Of a stretch of DNA of 64,000 nt, positions 3,336-9,879 are shown piece by piece. Position numbers and translations under genes: made by a program. Source of the stretch: Aquisphaera giovannonii (GTDB taxonomy: Bacteria; Planctomycetota; Planctomycetia; Isosphaerales; Isosphaeraceae); NCBI RefSeq assembly GCF_008087625.1, contig NZ_CP042997.1, positions 1,736,001 to 1,800,000 on the forward strand. Direction: 5' to 3'. Under the pieces are notes generated by a model. It was not told the DNA's origin. It ran no database searches and worked only from the letters and a program-made list of their open reading frames with translations. Every line of letters begins with the position of its first letter. Position 1 is the stretch's first letter.

Positions 3336-4298
3336 ATGAGCGTGATCGTCATCGAGCCCGGTTTCTGGACGACGGTGCAGGACGCCGGCGTCCCCGGCCG
3401 GCGCGAGTGGGGCGTGCCGCCGGGGGGGGCCTTCGACCTCGGCTCCGCCGAGCTGGCCAACGCCCTGGCCGGCAATCGGCCGGACGCCGCGGTGCTCGAG
3501 TTCACCCTCCGCGGCGGCGTCTACGAGGCGCTCGGGAGCCTGGGGGGGGCGATCGCCGGGGCGACCATCGAGGCCACGCTCGCGGGGCTCGACGGCATCT
3601 CCCGCTCGATCCGCACCCCGTGCAGCTTCTCGCTCCACGCCGGCGACCGCCTGGTCCTGGGCCGGACCCTGGACGGCGCGAGGGCCTACCTGGCCGTCCG
3701 GGGGGGCTTCCAGACCGCGACCCGGCTGGGATCCCGCTCCTCCGAGCATCCGCTGCGGCGGGGCGACTTCCTCCGGACCCGCGAGAGCCTCATCCCGGCC
3801 CGATACCCCGTGGACCTCCCCCCGATCGAGCCGACCGCCGAGCCGTTCCGGGTCGTGCGCGGCCCCGACGCCCCCGCCGGCGACCTGGCCCGGTTCTGGC
3901 GCTCCGGCGAGTTCCGCGTCGGCTCCCGGAGCAACCGCATGGGCCTGCGGCTGGAGGGCCCCGCGCTGGAGGTCATGTCGCCCCCGGACCGCCTCTCCGC
4001 GCCCGTGGCGCCGGGGGCCATCCAGGTGGCCGGCGGCCAGCTCATCGTCCTGGGCGTGGCGGCCGGCACGATGGGCGGATACCCCCACGTCGCCCACGTC
4101 GCCTCCGCCGACATGGACCGCCTCGCCCAGCTCCGTCCCGGGGACCTCATCGGCTTCCGCCCCGTATCCCTCCCGGACGCCCGCTCCCTCGACCGAGAGG
4201 CCCGGCAGGAGCGTCGGTCGCGGCTCCTCCGCATCGGCAGCCTCGCCGGCGACCTGCGATCCGCCGCCGTCCCCCGCCCCGAAGCGGCCCGCGTCTAG
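3336..4298 (+). CDS. pxpC: 5-oxoprolinase subunit PxpC (KipA-like)
   Basis: Third subunit of 5-oxoprolinase, of the biotin-dependent carboxyltransferase-like (KipA/AHS2) fold. The 320-residue product has the typical start VIEPGFWTTVQDAGVPGRR, then GVPPGGAFD, ARAYLAVRGGF, the SRSNRMGLRLEG motif and the APGAIQVAGGQLIVLGV and TMGGYPHVAHV stretches near the end. It follows pxpA after 42 nt and closes the operon. The next gene-like sequence lies beyond a repeat array with much lower GC, so the operon probably ends here. Confidence 0.94.
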   Translation: MSVIVIEPGFWTTVQDAGVPGRREWGVPPGGAFDLGSAELANALAGNRPDAAVLEFTLRGGVYEALGSLGGAIAGATIEATLAGLDGISRSIRTPCSFSLHAGDRLVLGRTLDGARAYLAVRGGFQTATRLGSRSSEHPLRRGDFLRTRESLIPARYPVDLPPIEPTAEPFRVVRGPDAPAGDLARFWRSGEFRVGSRSNRMGLRLEGPALEVMSPPDRLSAPVAPGAIQVAGGQLIVLGVAAGTMGGYPHVAHVASADMDRLAQLRPGDLIGFRPVSLPDARSLDREARQERRSRLLRIGSLAGDLRSAAVPRPEAARV

Positions 4299-4511
4299 GC
4301 GACTCCCTCCAGGCCCCATCGCGATCCATCAAGGCTCGCTGCCCACGGTATGGCCCCTGGAGCGCCGTCTCACCGGTCGCCTCCACAGGAAAGGCTGCTT
4401 CGCAGATTTCTTACTTTGCCGCGGGGAATCCGAATGCCCCCCTTGGGGCGCCCGTTGGCCCCCCCATAAGAACGGCAGGCTATTCAGTCTGCCCGGCTAT
4501 CGGTCACGGAC

Positions 4512-4692
4512 CAGAATGACTCCTTTGGCCTCCTCAGAATGACCCCTTCGGCCTCCTGCTGCCTTTGGGCTCCTCAGAATGACCCCTTTGGCCTCCTGTC
4601 GGTCACGGACCAGAATGAATCCTTTGGCCTACTGACCCCTTTGGCCTCCACACAGAATGACCCCTTTGGCCTCCATGACCCCTTTGGCCTCC
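4512..4692. repeat. array of seven TGACCCC-type direct repeats (left edge of low-GC island)
   Basis: Seven copies of a unit of about 22 bp occur at 4512-4533, 4535-4556, 4575-4596, 4611-4632, 4633-4649 (half), 4653-4674 and 4676-4692 (half). The best-conserved core is TGACCCCTTTGGCCTCC, preceded in full copies by CAGAA. A longer stretch CGGTCACGGACCAGAATGA is also repeated at 4501 and 4600. The spacing is irregular, so this is not a CRISPR. Multiple short repeats of this kind occur at the ends of IS21-family elements, where they are thought to bind transposase; an IS remnant is therefore the favoured, unproven reading. From 4299 to 4511 no gene is visible. Confidence 0.8.
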
Positions 4693-4695
4693 ACG

Positions 4696-4974
4696 ATGCG
4701 GGCGGAGCGGATGAGCTCGATTACCACTGAAATCATGCAGCTCGCCCCTGGAATCCGTGCCGGAAAGTCGCTCGGGCGATTATCGCGAGCGAACCGGGAG
4801 ACGGTAGGGCAAATCGCACGGTTGGGCAAGCGGTTTCTTATGAGAACGGCGACGCGATCTGACGTGGAAGACGGCCCGGAAAGGCGATTCATCCATGCGG
4901 ATTCAGCAGGAGAAGTGTTCAAGATTCCAGGTCGACTGGCGAAAGGCTATACTGAGAAAGACGACGTTGAATAG
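4696..4974 (+). pseudogene. possible remnant of a transposase N-terminus (helix-turn-helix-like)
   Basis: A 92-residue frame starts directly after the last repeat unit. The stretch IRAGKSLGRLSRANRETV followed by GQIARLGKR looks like a degraded helix-turn-helix such as those that begin IstA-type transposases (pattern: slow-RLS-x-x-RETV-x-x-IARL). After about residue 50 the sequence has no recognisable domain and the frame stops at 4974. No downstream catalytic DDE domain or IstB ATPase is present. Its position just inside the repeat array fits a left IS end with a truncated first gene. Weakly supported; it could be non-coding. Confidence 0.28.
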
Positions 4975-5029
4975 AACGTTGTCCGGCGCCGCCGAAGCGG
5001 AGCTGATGGGACGACCGCGAGAATCGAAA

Positions 5030-5671
5030 ATGAGTGCCGATCTTTCGTCTGCGATCTCCGCTATCGCTACCGCCATCGGGACGTTCTTCGGCGTGCTCAC
5101 GTTCTTCGTGGCGGTAGTGGCGCTCTCATCGTGGCGGCATCAGCTCGTCGAAACCCAGCGTTATGAGGCCGGAAGACGGTATCGAACGATCGTTCTTAAG
5201 ATCCGGCACGAGCTTCGAAGGCTGGCAGCCAACGATCGCATGTTCGTAACTTCCCTTTTCTCTTATTACCGAGACGATGAGTTTGGGGTACCAAGCGTAT
5301 TTGGACCATACCTCGCTTGGCAGAACGCAGTCTGGAATGATCAGTCGAAGCTCTTGACCGATGCGGCGAGCGACCTGCGGGCGTTCCTGTACGAGGCAGA
5401 AGGCCTCTGGGGGCCGATGGCCCGCGTAGACACAGCGGACCTGCTCTCGATCGCCGACAACGTGAGCCTCAATTACACGAAGCTGATTAACCCCCTTATG
5501 AGTCAGCCGGAACCTAATTTCTCCGAGCTCCAGAAGCAGATCGATTACCTATGTGATGAAAACCTCAACCTGGACACGGCCTACTCGGAAAAACTGGAGA
5601 AGGCCGTCGAGAAAGCCCTATCGGTCGTGGAACGGCCAATTGTCGGGATCGGCAATTGTCGCAAGCGATGA
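5030..5671 (+). CDS. single-pass membrane protein of unknown function (low-GC island)
   Basis: Not assigned to a known family. ATG 5030 gives a 213-residue protein with a short polar head (MSADLSS), one transmembrane helix (about residues 8-32, rich in Ile, Phe and Val) and a cytoplasmic-looking alpha-helical domain of about 180 residues (SSWRHQLVETQRYEAGRRYR and onward). This layout is shared by small accessory membrane proteins found in mobile regions. In-frame upstream starts (4895, 5005) exist, but they add residues without a domain or convincing ribosome site. Base composition is much less GC-rich than the flanking operons and codon choice is mixed, consistent with transfer. Confidence 0.62.
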   Translation: MSADLSSAISAIATAIGTFFGVLTFFVAVVALSSWRHQLVETQRYEAGRRYRTIVLKIRHELRRLAANDRMFVTSLFSYYRDDEFGVPSVFGPYLAWQNAVWNDQSKLLTDAASDLRAFLYEAEGLWGPMARVDTADLLSIADNVSLNYTKLINPLMSQPEPNFSELQKQIDYLCDENLNLDTAYSEKLEKAVEKALSVVERPIVGIGNCRKR

Positions 5672-5746
5672 ATTATCTCCTGCGATTCGCATTGGAGGAC
5701 CCGTGGCCGTGAAACCGCATGAGCAACCATCTGGCGGAAATACGAG

Positions 5747-6070
5747 ATGAGCTACCTGGTTCAGCGGCACATAAATTCCTGGGAGGACTTTCGCAGGCAG
5801 CGAGATCGCCTTCTGGCAGAGCGGCACTGGGATTCGCCCAGCGAGATGTTCCGGGCGAATCATGCGGTACCCCGTATGCGGACAACGGCGAGCCTGCTTG
5901 ACATGGCCCTCAAGGTGGTTGAGCCTGTCCAGTTCCAAGGAAAGCTTTTCAAGAACTCGGAATCAGTCTCGCGATATCCACAGCCCGCACCTCCAGGAAC
6001 TCAGGAGGCGAAGGGTCTCTTCGTCGAGATCATCTCCCCGATAGACGGGAGGGCGAGGAAGGCGCAGTAG
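5747..6070 (+). CDS. small hypothetical protein, 107 aa (low-GC island)
   Basis: Unrecognised. The product starts MSYLVQRHINSWEDFRRQR, is strongly charged in its first half and has no membrane segment. It lies between two membrane-protein genes on the same strand, 75 nt after the first and 82 nt before the second, which is the main reason to accept it. The ribosome-binding site is weak. An antisense frame of similar length (5618-5938) is open, so coding status is uncertain. Confidence 0.38.
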   Translation: MSYLVQRHINSWEDFRRQRDRLLAERHWDSPSEMFRANHAVPRMRTTASLLDMALKVVEPVQFQGKLFKNSESVSRYPQPAPPGTQEAKGLFVEIISPIDGRARKAQ

Positions 6071-6152
6071 CAGTTTATTGTCTCGGATGCGATGACTAGG
6101 GATCTGTGAGCCTTGCTGACTGAAAACGTCCGATCCTCGAAAGGACTACTCG

Positions 6153-7142
6153 ATGAGAATCATCACCACCAAGTGGATTTCAAGGCAATATTGGGCAGGA
6201 GTACGTACGAACGGCATCCGTAATGTAAGGTCGGCCCTTGATCAATTCAATCGCCAACGCAATCTAGCGAACCAGATAAGGTCCGTAAGTCCGTGGTTCC
6301 CGCACATCGCTGGAGCGCTGTTAATCACACTGGCGTTAGTAATGATACCCAAGTTTCAAGCAAATGAATTCACGGACGCAAAGCAGAGATTCGATGCAGA
6401 AGACGCGGCACGGAAAACCATAGCTCAGATTCTGGCGGGTGGCTTCTTCTTTGTGACCGCCTATTTCACCTGGAGAACCGTCAAGGCCGCAGAGAGCAAC
6501 GTTACAGTTGGTCAAAGAAATGTCGCCATCGCCGAGGACAGGCTGACATCTGAACGATTCTTCAAGGCAACTGAGGGTCTTGAAAGCAAGAACGTTCTTA
6601 CGAGAACGGCAAGCATCTACACACTAGAACGAATAGCTGAGGACTCCGCAAGAGAGCGTAAGACCGTGACGGACGTTCTTTGTGATTTCATCCGCAACGG
6701 ACGGATCGTTGTCGCCCCCGTGAGCCGAGGCGATATCCCTGATAGAGAAGGAGAGTTTCCAAAAGACATTCAGTCGGCGATCACAGTTCTGGGAAGGCTA
6801 AACAAGCGATGGCCGGGAGAGGTCGATATCGAACTTGCTCGAACTGACTTGCGGGGTGCAGATTTTTATCGCAGCGACTTCAGCAGAAGTAATTTCACTC
6901 GTAGTTGGCTTGACGGCGCCGACCTGATGGGGGCTGACTTTAGCAGGTGCGTCCTTGATGGAGCATCTTTAGACTATGCCGACACAACAGGAACAGATTT
7001 CTCGCGATCCCACTTGGATCTCTACAGTTTCGAGAACGTAGAGCTTGGTGACGCCTATCTGGATGGCATTATCGTACCCATGGCTACTTTTTCGGCAATA
7101 CAGGCGAAGTTAAGCGAAGCGGATCAAGAAGAGGATGAGTAG
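6153..7142 (+). CDS. membrane-anchored pentapeptide-repeat protein
   Basis: The 329-residue product has two transmembrane helices (about residues 49-66 and 92-110), then a helical segment (RFFKATEGLESKN ... IYTLERIAEDS ... VLCDFIRN, about 130-190) that often precedes pentapeptide repeats. The repeats run from about 222 to 300, with A(D/N)LxG-type units: TDLRGADFYRSDFSRSNF, LDGADLMGADFSR, LDGASLDYAD. These form a right-handed quadrilateral beta-helix; in other proteins such folds bind partners or mimic DNA, but the role here is unknown. The gene has clearly lower GC than neighbours outside the island and ends 30 nt before the right-hand repeat array. Confidence 0.85.
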   Translation: MRIITTKWISRQYWAGVRTNGIRNVRSALDQFNRQRNLANQIRSVSPWFPHIAGALLITLALVMIPKFQANEFTDAKQRFDAEDAARKTIAQILAGGFFFVTAYFTWRTVKAAESNVTVGQRNVAIAEDRLTSERFFKATEGLESKNVLTRTASIYTLERIAEDSARERKTVTDVLCDFIRNGRIVVAPVSRGDIPDREGEFPKDIQSAITVLGRLNKRWPGEVDIELARTDLRGADFYRSDFSRSNFTRSWLDGADLMGADFSRCVLDGASLDYADTTGTDFSRSHLDLYSFENVELGDAYLDGIIVPMATFSAIQAKLSEADQEEDE

Positions 7143-7169
7143 GCCCGCTCGATAAAACTGAGGAGCGGA

Positions 7170-7385
7170 GGTCAATCGGGGCCATCCACCTTTCATGTCA
7201 TTCGAAGCTGGGGTCAATCGGCGCCATCCACCTTTCATGTCTTAGTCAATCGCGGGTCAATCGGGGCCATCCACTCTTCATGTCTTCGGGGGGTCAATCG
7301 GTTCCATCCACTTTTCATGTCTTCGGGGGGTCAATCGGGGCCATCCACTTTTGGGGTCAATCGGGGCCATCCACTTTTCATGTCT
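7170..7385. repeat. array of about six GGTCAATC-type direct repeats (right edge of low-GC island)
   Basis: About six copies of a roughly 30-bp unit lie head to tail with 5-15 nt spacers. The core is GGTCAATCGGGGCCATCCAC, followed in most copies by TTTTCATGTCTTCG. Copies begin near 7171, 7211, 7255, 7292, 7328 (truncated) and 7354. Some carry single changes (GCGCC or GTTCC for GGGCC; CCTTT or CTCTT for CTTTT). The unit carries GGGGTCA, the reverse complement of the TGACCCC in the left array, as expected of the two inverted ends of one element. No transposase lies between the arrays. From 7386 to 7560 no gene is seen. Confidence 0.78.
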
Positions 7386-7560
7386 TCGAAGCTGGCGCCC
7401 CGTTTCCGATCTGTTGGGCTCGCGGGCCGCGATCCGCATTTTTTCTCAGTCGCCGTGAAATCGGCGGACCTGAACGGGGGATCGTGCTGGGTAAAAGCTG
7501 CGAAATCTCGCGCGTTCGTTCTCCAACGACCCCTCACCCTCGACGCGGAGGCCCCCGACG

Positions 7561-9879
7561 ATGACGACCGAGGTCCGCATTCTGGCGTTCAGGCCTAGCG
7601 AATCGCTCCCGACGGGCCCGAACGCGAAGCGGAGGAAGGCCCGCTCGCGGCCGAAAGGGATCGTGCCGGGGGGAGGGCGCCGGGAGGCGGCGATCCCGAA
7701 GGCGGGCCGGGCGGGTCCGCGGGGGATCGAGGAGCGGGCGGCGGGGTTGCTCCGGGCGGCCAGCCCGGCCGCGAGCGAGGAGAGGGTGCTGCTGAGGAAG
7801 GCCGCCGAGCTGGCCCGGAAGATCGACGAGGCGGAGCGGGCCGAGGGGGCGTACCTCGAGCGGGCCGGCCGCATCGTGGAGGATCGGCGCAGGGCGGCGG
7901 AGGCGGGGGGACCCGGGCGGGTGCTGGAGTTGAGCCGGCGGCTGATGGCGTGGGAGGAGTCCGCCGACCGCGACCCGTCCGACGGGGCGGGGCGCATCCT
8001 GGGCGAGCTGGAGGGCTCGCGCGCGGGCCGGGCGTGGCTGATCCGGCTCTGGGGATGGATTCGCGAGTGGATCGGGCGGAAGGGCCGGTTCGGGGTGATG
8101 GACCGGTATCGGCTCGTGCGGGCGCTCGGCCACGACCCGATCGACGCGGCGAGGCTCCCGCGGGTCCGCGAGGTCTTCGCGGCGCTGAATGCCCTGGACC
8201 CGCGGGGCGGGCTCGATGGCGAGGTGTTCCTCGCCAGGGCGGGGGAACTCGCCGCGGGATGCCACCCGATCGTCGGCTGCTCGCCGGCCTGGCGCGAGGC
8301 GGCGGGGACGTTCGCATCGGCGGAGGAGGCCCGCGCGTTCCTGCTGAACCTGGTGGACGAGCGAGTCCGCCGGCTGGAGGCCCTCCGGGCCGCGTCGGCT
8401 CCCGAGCGGGCCGACCGCGAGGCCCTCGCGGTGATGGCGGCGGTGGAGGGCTTTCGTCGAGAGGCCGAGGCGACGGGGCGGAAGTTCCTCCGGGTCATGG
8501 AGGAGCTTCGCCGGGTGCGGACGGGTGCGTCGGCGGAGGCGGGGCGTCCCGTCGGAGCCGCCTCCGTGCGGCGACCGGGTGAGCCTCGGCCGGCGGTCGT
8601 CCCCGAGGCGGCCGGCCTCCGTGGCGAAGGATTCGGTGAAGCGGCGGAACGCGGTGGTACGGCGGCGGCCAAGGCGTTTGAGAACCGCGGTCATGGCATG
8701 CTCACGAAGGGACTTGCGGCGAGGTTTTCGAAGCGGCGTGCGCGACGAGTGGGGCCGCCCCCGGGCCGGGACGGAGGACATCGGCGTGGGGCCGAAGGTG
8801 ACGCCCCGGCCAGGCGGACCGGTGGGGACGATGGCGTGGGACTTGACGAGCCTGGCCCGAAAGCTCGCGAGTCCGTGCCGACGACCCTGAGTGTCGAAGG
8901 TCCGGGCCGTTCCTCTCCGGACGAGGCCGTCGAAGCGGCACCGACCCAAGGCCTGGCGCTGCGGCTTGACGGTCTGCCGAGGGGCCTGGGTGGCCGCGGT
9001 GGAGCCGCAGGCGACCCCGCGGGGGTGGGCCGTCGCGGCGATCCGGGCGCCGTCCGCACGCCGAGGCGATCCCGCGGGGTCGCCTGCGGCTCCACCGCGG
9101 CCACCCGGCTGCAAGGCCGTGCCGATCGACAAGCGCCGCCGAGGCTGATGCTTCTGTCTCGGGGTGATGCCGGCGAACCCGTTCGAAAACCGTGTTCAAG
9201 GGGTTCCATCGAAAGGATTTGCGGCGAGGCATTCGAAGCACGGCGCGGCGACGAGCGGAGCCATGCGACCGACGCGGCGAGGGCGTCGGGATGGCGTGGG
9301 TTGGCCGGGGCGAAGCGGCGCGAGGACGGGAGGGAAGTGAGGCCATCGTGCCGCCGGGGCGTCACGCGCCGGGACGATTCCCTGGGCATCCGATGTCGGC
9401 GTCCAGGAACGGAGGCTCGACGGCCGGCGGCAGGCTGCGAGATGGCGGAGACGACGGGAAAACCTTGCCCGGGCACGGGCCACAACTCGGCCCGTAAACC
9501 CAGATTCGGACATAATTTAAATACGATAGGGGTTTGCCCATCGAGGCGACGAGCAAACCCACCGAGTCTCGTTCGGGCTGTTGCGAGGGCCGGAGGCCCG
9601 CCCGCGGCATTCCGCCTCCGCGGGGGCGTTCGTCGGGCGTCATGCGACCGGCATGGGCCCTACCGGATGAGGGCCTGGAAGGAGACCTCGCCGGAGGCGC
9701 CCGGGGCGATGACGCCGGGGAGGGTCCACTTCAGCTCGGTCGAGCCGACGCGGTTCTCGGACGCCGAGAAGTCGGTGCCGCGCGGCCCCTTCGCGGTCCC
9801 CTTCACGTACTCGAGCCGGGGGAGCAGGCTGTCCACGATCTCGGCCGAGCGGATGGGGGTGTTGCCCATGTTGCGGTAG
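7561..9879 (+). CDS. hypothetical protein; only the first ~340 residues look coding
   Basis: Unrecognised. From ATG 7561 the first 340 or so codons have the strong G/C third-position bias of genes here and encode an Arg/Ala/Glu-rich, mostly alpha-helical protein (LLRKAAELARKIDEAERAEG; RAFLLNLVDERVRRLEALR) without signal peptide or membrane helix. After about 8550 the bias disappears and the frame runs, open by chance, through repetitive sequence and into the 3' end of the convergent gene at 9660. The natural stop has therefore probably been lost or sits in another frame. The given end is simply the first in-frame stop; the real protein may end near 8.6 kb through a frameshift. Confidence 0.4.
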   Translation: MTTEVRILAFRPSESLPTGPNAKRRKARSRPKGIVPGGGRREAAIPKAGRAGPRGIEERAAGLLRAASPAASEERVLLRKAAELARKIDEAERAEGAYLERAGRIVEDRRRAAEAGGPGRVLELSRRLMAWEESADRDPSDGAGRILGELEGSRAGRAWLIRLWGWIREWIGRKGRFGVMDRYRLVRALGHDPIDAARLPRVREVFAALNALDPRGGLDGEVFLARAGELAAGCHPIVGCSPAWREAAGTFASAEEARAFLLNLVDERVRRLEALRAASAPERADREALAVMAAVEGFRREAEATGRKFLRVMEELRRVRTGASAEAGRPVGAASVRRPGEPRPAVVPEAAGLRGEGFGEAAERGGTAAAKAFENRGHGMLTKGLAARFSKRRARRVGPPPGRDGGHRRGAEGDAPARRTGGDDGVGLDEPGPKARESVPTTLSVEGPGRSSPDEAVEAAPTQGLALRLDGLPRGLGGRGGAAGDPAGVGRRGDPGAVRTPRRSRGVACGSTAATRLQGRADRQAPPRLMLLSRGDAGEPVRKPCSRGSIERICGEAFEARRGDERSHATDAARASGWRGLAGAKRREDGREVRPSCRRGVTRRDDSLGIRCRRPGTEARRPAAGCEMAETTGKPCPGTGHNSARKPRFGHNLNTIGVCPSRRRANPPSLVRAVARAGGPPAAFRLRGGVRRASCDRHGPYRMRAWKETSPEAPGAMTPGRVHFSSVEPTRFSDAEKSVPRGPFAVPFTYSSRGSRLSTISAERMGVLPMLR
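8672..8760. repeat. diverged direct repeat, copy 1
   Basis: This stretch and 9176-9263 align along most of their length, sharing pieces such as TTGCGGCGAGG, TTCGAAGC and GACGAG in the same order. About 25 nt further on both copies also share GATGGCGTGGG. They flank the perfect inverted repeat at 8988-9106. They look like two ageing copies of a non-coding repeat family. Confidence 0.55.
8988..9106. repeat. perfect 36-bp inverted repeat with 47-bp spacer
   Basis: Arm 1 spans 8988-9023 and arm 2 spans 9071-9106; they are exact reverse complements over all 36 bases (arm 1 begins GGGTGGCCGCGGTGGAGCC). Transcribed either way this gives a very stable hairpin. There is no T-tract, so it is not a simple terminator. 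A REP/MITE-like repetitive element is the likeliest nature. Confidence 0.85.
9176..9263. repeat. diverged direct repeat, copy 2
   Basis: Second copy of the repeat described at 8672-8760, in the same orientation and about 500 bp downstream. No convincing gene is seen between 9264 and 9659 apart from the hairpin at 9530-9560. Confidence 0.55.
9530..9560 (-). terminator. hairpin downstream of the 9660-11504 gene
   Basis: An 8-bp stem (GGGTTTGC at 9530-9537 with GCAAACCC at 9553-9560) has a 15-nt loop. On the minus strand it is followed by an A/T-rich stretch (CGTATTTAAATTATG), rare in this genome. It lies 100 nt after the stop of the minus-strand gene ending at 9660, in the right place for an intrinsic terminator. 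Confidence 0.45.

Follow-up and report, generated by a model that had tools for sequence, protein, structure and literature searches.

A low-GC island of Aquisphaera giovannonii framed by oppositely oriented TIRYT-like repeat arrays

A stretch of 64,000 nucleotides from the planctomycete Aquisphaera giovannonii (the window: bases 1736001-1800000 of the 10.37 Mb contig, in a genome of 10.5 Mb on three contigs with about 71% GC) contains a low-GC island whose edges carry two short-repeat arrays of opposite orientation. The account favored here, on balance, is that the island is accessory cargo, acquired horizontally and now enclosed by two decayed terminal-repeat arrays of the kind that flank TIRYT transposase genes. 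The best reading further counts it among a group of accessory islands that are in part defensive.

The island and its two arrays

Across about 4.5-7.4 kb of the window (about 3 kb), GC content is 0.51-0.58, against 0.70-0.77 on either side. A two-state hidden Markov model places the only low-GC island of the window at 4466-7526, with GC 0.55 against about 0.71 around it. An earlier note on this DNA had described such an island at about 4.4-7.4 kb, and the codon-bias comparison that it proposed agrees: GC at third codon positions is 0.68, 0.70 and 0.53 in the three open reading frames of the island (ORF1, ORF2 and ORF3), compared with 0.96-0.98 in the two upstream genes. The note's account of the contents also holds. 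The ORFs, all on the plus strand, encode a membrane protein, a small unknown and a membrane pentapeptide protein, and they are framed by two arrays with reverse-complementary TGACCCC and GGGGTCA cores. At the island there was no sign of an integrase, a tRNA site or a phage gene, and a search of plasmids with the island DNA and the ORF1 and ORF2 proteins gave no match.

The left array (type A, unit CAGAATGACCCCTTTGGCCTCC) spans 4431-4694, its clean part being 4512-4694, and has its C-rich strand on the plus strand. It consists of eight full or truncated units and a degenerate unit at 4431; eight copies of TGACCCCTTTGGCCTCC lie at 4517-4694 (tandem score 140), and some units carry the fuller CAGAATGACCCC start. 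The right array (type B, unit GGGGTCAATCGGGGCCATCCACTTTTCATGTC) spans 7169-7390, has its G-rich core strand on the plus strand, and contains six units that are copies of GGGTCAATCGGGGCCATCCAC-TTTTCATGTC, with tandem scores of 208-234. Given these scores, both arrays stand far above chance. The left GGGGTCAT and right GGGGTCAA cores each agree at 7 of 8 positions with GGGGWSAS, the motif described for TIRYT repeats (PMC3733652).

The locus is a turnover site at which related species carry different cargo. The left flanking genes are metabolic, of the LamB/YcsF (PxpA) and carboxyltransferase (PxpC) families, and the PxpC gene (3336-4298, plus strand; Pfam CT_A_B, 8e-58), found in 13 of the 15 relatives searched, is the conserved left border. 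On the right lies an ORF at 7561-9879 (plus strand, exact extent uncertain); in the sister species G002 the conserved sequence on this side begins with its homologue. This closest relative, about 76% identical at the left flank, has different content at the same site: on the PxpC side there is a C-rich array of a different kind with a DUF4145-like ORF, and on the right side the conserved sequence is preceded by a G-rich array resembling type A and by other genes, although the two pieces are on separate contigs and the exact insert is hidden by the gap between them. In a second relative (G001) a different gene follows PxpC, without arrays. The right-flank test in relatives used one gene. ORF1 had no match in 98 relatives, and ORF3 gave pentapeptide cross-matches only; the three genes were looked for in vertical synteny with matching GC, and no such arrangement was found in relatives. 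Together with the different contents of this slot in the nearest relative, these results support the earlier description of an accessory module, and the island is very probably acquired cargo.

Array families and the ends of transposase genes

TIRYTs, which are RAYT-like HUH transposases with a single tyrosine, have genes bordered by inverted repeats; the terminal inverted repeat (TIR) motif is GGGGWSAS, and the repeats sometimes occur in clusters (PMC3733652). Of the TIRYTs described, most fall in TnpA_Y1 subclass 2.1, and no REP-like sequences were found flanking genes of that subclass (PMC6006769). The Y1 (HUH) transposase genes located in this genome and its relatives are here given the provisional label TIRYT.

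Several array families equal or resemble the ends of TIRYT genes. In three relatives (G005, G007 and G009) transposase genes lie between an upstream GGGGACATTCTA, often present as an array, and an inverted downstream TAGAATGTCCCC, and the gene ends are exact inverted matches of 14-24 nt. The sequence AGAATG[T/A]CCCC is common to these gene ends and the left array of the window. Because type A variants within the A. giovannonii genome read AGAATGTCCCCTTTGGCCTCC, type A has one half of that end, AGAATG[T/A]CCCC. No Y1 transposase gene flanked by the exact type A unit was found in this genome or its relatives. Type E (GGGGACGCAGCTAG) lies directly upstream of one of the genome's own TIRYT genes (L024), and an array of it lies beside a TIRYT gene in G018, while the genome's own transposases L021 and L022 are flanked by types C/D and I. 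Inverted flanking of a Y1 gene was seen for the AGAATG[T]CCCC-type units of G005, G007 and G009 and for types C, E and I in this genome or its relatives. Many array families near these units (A, B, C/D, E, I and others) have a common TGNCCCC/GGGGNCA-like core. To judge from these likenesses, the window arrays are probably TIRYT-type ends.

The resemblance to TIRYT genes and their repeats (TIRtrons) extends to the GGGG[A/T][C/G]A core, the inversion around transposase genes and the extra clustered copies, with type-A-like, C, E and I units flanking such transposase genes in the A. giovannonii genome or in relatives. Unlike a TIRtron, however, the window island has no transposase gene, its long arrays frame several kilobases of unrelated cargo, and the polarity of the framing pair is opposite to that of a gene-flanking pair. 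Among the papers searched, none was found to describe TIRYT repeat arrays framing kilobases of unrelated cargo. REP/REPIN arrays and RAYT REPtrons are similar in that short repeats are amplified around a domesticated Y1 transposase and form intergenic arrays, but the present units are not of the GTAG-tagged hairpin type.

Further arrays were observed beside transposase genes. In the sister species (G002:C46, L185:7950-8600), the longest units of an array of about 20 copies of TGACCCCTTATCGCCCT include the start of the adjacent TIRYT gene, and the shorter units are nested truncations. A different GC-rich dispersed repeat, GGCTCACCCGGTCGCCGGACGGAGCCGGCTCCCACGGGG, borders a Y1 transposase gene on either side with long arrays, in a REPtron-like arrangement (L026 and G000:C1:5139066-5140545).

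Array-framed islands along the chromosome and their cargo

Type A and B units and their variants occur at about a dozen further places on the chromosome, often as oppositely oriented pairs some kilobases apart; arrays related to type B lie at 6543035 and 6074119, and no exact type B unit was found in viral contigs. In the parts of the chromosome that were sampled, one or both edges of most low-GC islands carry such arrays. The statistics rest on 1.16 Mb in three chromosome stretches (S1-S3), one of them selected when its array pair was already known, and on chosen loci. Arrays of this class number 9 in the 1.16 Mb, and 4 of them are no more than 150 bp from a low-GC island edge; of the 55 other tandem arrays, none is that close. 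At random, 0.06 would be expected.

The polarity of the edges is uniform. Across all islands of at least 1 kb in the stretches, the window and the loci chosen for their arrays, together with one island of another genus (G022), the C-rich strand lies left and the G-rich strand right at 17 of 17 scorable edges (p 8e-6), a count that includes the only marginally concordant left edge of L011 (4 vs 5). The three stretches alone give 6 concordant edges out of 6 (p 0.016). Gene direction does not set this polarity, because the SIR2-HerA genes of one island are on the minus strand and its right edge is still G-rich. Core motifs reach a density of 5.9/kb at edges, compared with 1.4/kb inside islands and 2.5/kb in the background, and DNA covered by repeats follows the same pattern, being concentrated at edges and, except in L012, almost missing inside islands. 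Around Y1/TIRYT genes in relatives, a GC drop of at least 0.12 was seen in 8 of 20 neighborhoods, as against 1 of 19 control places (Mann-Whitney U test, p 0.03).

The sibling array-framed islands encode SIR2-HerA (E 1e-233 and 3e-130), a PDC-S65 SIR2 protein (1e-196), an N6-methylase with an MBL-fold protein, and DUF4062 (PDC-S60-like) and DUF4145 proteins; some hold TPR or orphan proteins. The SIR2-HerA pair occupies a low-GC island (L016:8391-11200, G000:C1:5588391-5591200) with type A arrays on both sides, the outer left one 2 kb away; matched A/A ends lie at 5586304 and 5591325. Ends are also matched in the G022 island (L184:9090-11520), which has TGAAATGCAGAATGTCCCC at both sides with a 20-nt inverted end, TGAAATGCAGAATGTCCCCTT, and encodes a Cap12-like TIR protein (7e-37, under the model's curated cut-off) and an uncharacterized 345-aa protein. 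In a plasmid of Manganitrophus with a relative of the SIR2-HerA island, a gene annotated as a tyrosine-type recombinase adjoins the SIR2-HerA genes. On reading of the sequence, VapC/HigA-like genes lie beside several arrays, and such toxin-antitoxin genes adjoin type A repeats in separate islands (G000:C1:5033558-5034540 and L016:11600-12226).

TIRYT genes are present at some sibling loci (8353160/8354732 and 249621). The first two stand head-out around a low-GC island at 8353443-8354487, in the order TIRYT (minus strand), island, TIRYT (plus strand) over 8353160-8355076, and the third lies 2.2 kb off the right edge of an island at 244-247 kb. Past the TIRYT pair, a DDE-type transposase fragment is followed by a second array-framed island (L019, G000:C1:8353160-8357670). 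In their low-GC, patchy cargo (SIR2-HerA, PDC-S65, methylase/MBL, Cap12-like TIR), and in having variable content at a conserved site, the array-framed islands resemble bacterial defense islands and mobile-element cargo hotspots. Unlike known defense islands, they are framed by TIRYT-type repeat arrays.

The cargo of the window itself is less readily classified. ORF1 (5030-5671, plus strand), an orphan of about 213 aa, has one N-terminal transmembrane (TM) helix and a long-helical domain; its start may be at 4895, 5006 or 5030, the frame being open from 4895. A search of solved structures with its predicted model (pLDDT, the model's own confidence score, 62) returned nothing at E < 0.001, only helical bundles. 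In a relative (G010, L187:8751-9332), a small one-TM protein with an ORF1-like layout is encoded directly after a TIRYT gene, at a locus adjoining a low-GC island of 5.6 kb that carries a DUF4062 gene. ORF2 (5747-6070, plus strand, 107 aa) is possibly a real gene; neither it nor ORF1 matched a Pfam family. ORF3 (6153-7142, plus strand), with an RBS-like (ribosome-binding-site-like) AAAGGA a short way 5' of its start, has an N-terminal TM region, a linker and C-terminal pentapeptide repeats that place it in family PF00805 (49.1 bits, cut-off 20.2, E 4e-13); its predicted structure (pLDDT 42) was too poor for use. The N-terminal region is 28-38% identical to those of plasmid-borne, TM-anchored proteins of cyanobacteria and actinobacteria, which are annotated 'pentapeptide repeat-containing protein' and for whose family no function was found. 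ORF3 differs from that family in that, among the planctomycetes searched, only its pentapeptide part matched outside this copy.

None of the three ORFs matched a known defense model in PADLOC. The earlier suggestion of a phage-response cargo draws support only from the analogy with defense genes in the sibling islands, not from the three proteins themselves. By that analogy the window's genes may be in the same defense-rich class, but an actual defense role for ORF1-3 is somewhat doubtful.

How the island may have arisen

On the plus strand, a TIRYT element reads G-rich, gene, C-rich (GGGGACATTCT-gene-AGAATGTCCCC), and an island reads C-rich, cargo, G-rich. These opposite orders argue that the island is outside TIRYT elements, between the outward-facing ends of two. 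Foreign genes would have lodged between two such elements, whose transposase genes, now lost, would have decayed while their end repeats expanded and were truncated into arrays. As to the agent that moved the DNA, an enzyme or recombination, two routes are conceivable: a composite unit could have been moved by a TIRYT acting in trans, or cargo could have been brought in or exchanged by recombination between repeat copies. That TIRYT enzymes drove the movement is offered tentatively.

The second route taken alone is itself an alternative: dispersed TIR arrays would supply short stretches of homology, and RecA or single-strand annealing would use them to exchange cargo from one array-framed slot to another, with no transposase acting on the cargo. 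This would fit the different arrays and cargo in the slot of the nearest relative, the recurrence of shared array types at many sites, and the truncation of array units at C- or G-runs (CCC/GGGG microhomologies). However, type A is nearly private to this genome (30 matches, against 0-3 in relatives), and therefore few donors would have offered matching homology; exchange by homology alone is possible but not the likely course of events.

It is rather improbable that the arrays are bystanders, inserted and amplified late in nonessential junction DNA next to low-GC genes that had come by an unrelated route (phage, plasmid or transformation). REP and TIR repeats do favor intergenic DNA (PMC3733652), the two ends often belong to different families (as in the window and the S2 island at 5081 kb), and some arrays exist without islands (L017). 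Passive insertion is nonetheless hard to square with a polarity that is uniform at all scorable edges whatever the direction of the genes, with the depletion of motifs inside islands, or with other tandem arrays showing no edge excess. Finally, elements of the IS21 type do carry several repeats at either end, but it is highly implausible that an IS21-like or other DDE transposon left the arrays as its decayed multi-repeat ends, with the genes as passengers, for the units resemble TIRYT gene ends instead, and the genome has only weak ATPase-domain matches and no full IstB, leaving no cognate IstA/IstB pair.

Several observations weigh against cargo held between TIRYT-type ends. The window island has no transposase gene and no matched ends; since its ends come from different families (A and B), one enzyme recognizing both is not obvious, and type B ends were not found on any TIRYT gene. 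Neither a target-site duplication nor a clean empty site was observed, and the contig gap in the sister species falls within the comparison. Four low-GC islands have no arrays (including S1 361-365 kb and S2 5175-5181 kb), just as some arrays have no island, and the motif set and the class of arrays were fixed only once examples had been seen. At the two islands with matched ends, single-enzyme transposition is allowed.

RAYT and TIRYT enzymes are widespread relatives of Y1 transposases, and their purpose is unclear. REPtrons are regarded as not transposing as a unit, and, to our knowledge, TIRYT transposases have until now been described only as lone genes flanked by inverted repeats. It is a possibility, though not a strong one, that in Isosphaeraceae-like planctomycetes TIRYTs form composite cargo-bearing elements whose ends are expandable arrays, with the window's ORFs as possible defensive cargo. 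If end repeats do frame, and perhaps move, defense genes, this would give RAYT/TIRYT enzymes a role and would explain the turnover of defense cargo in large planctomycete genomes. Oppositely oriented GGGGWSA arrays around low-GC DNA would then be a sequence handle for finding unknown defense genes, possibly including ORF1-3.

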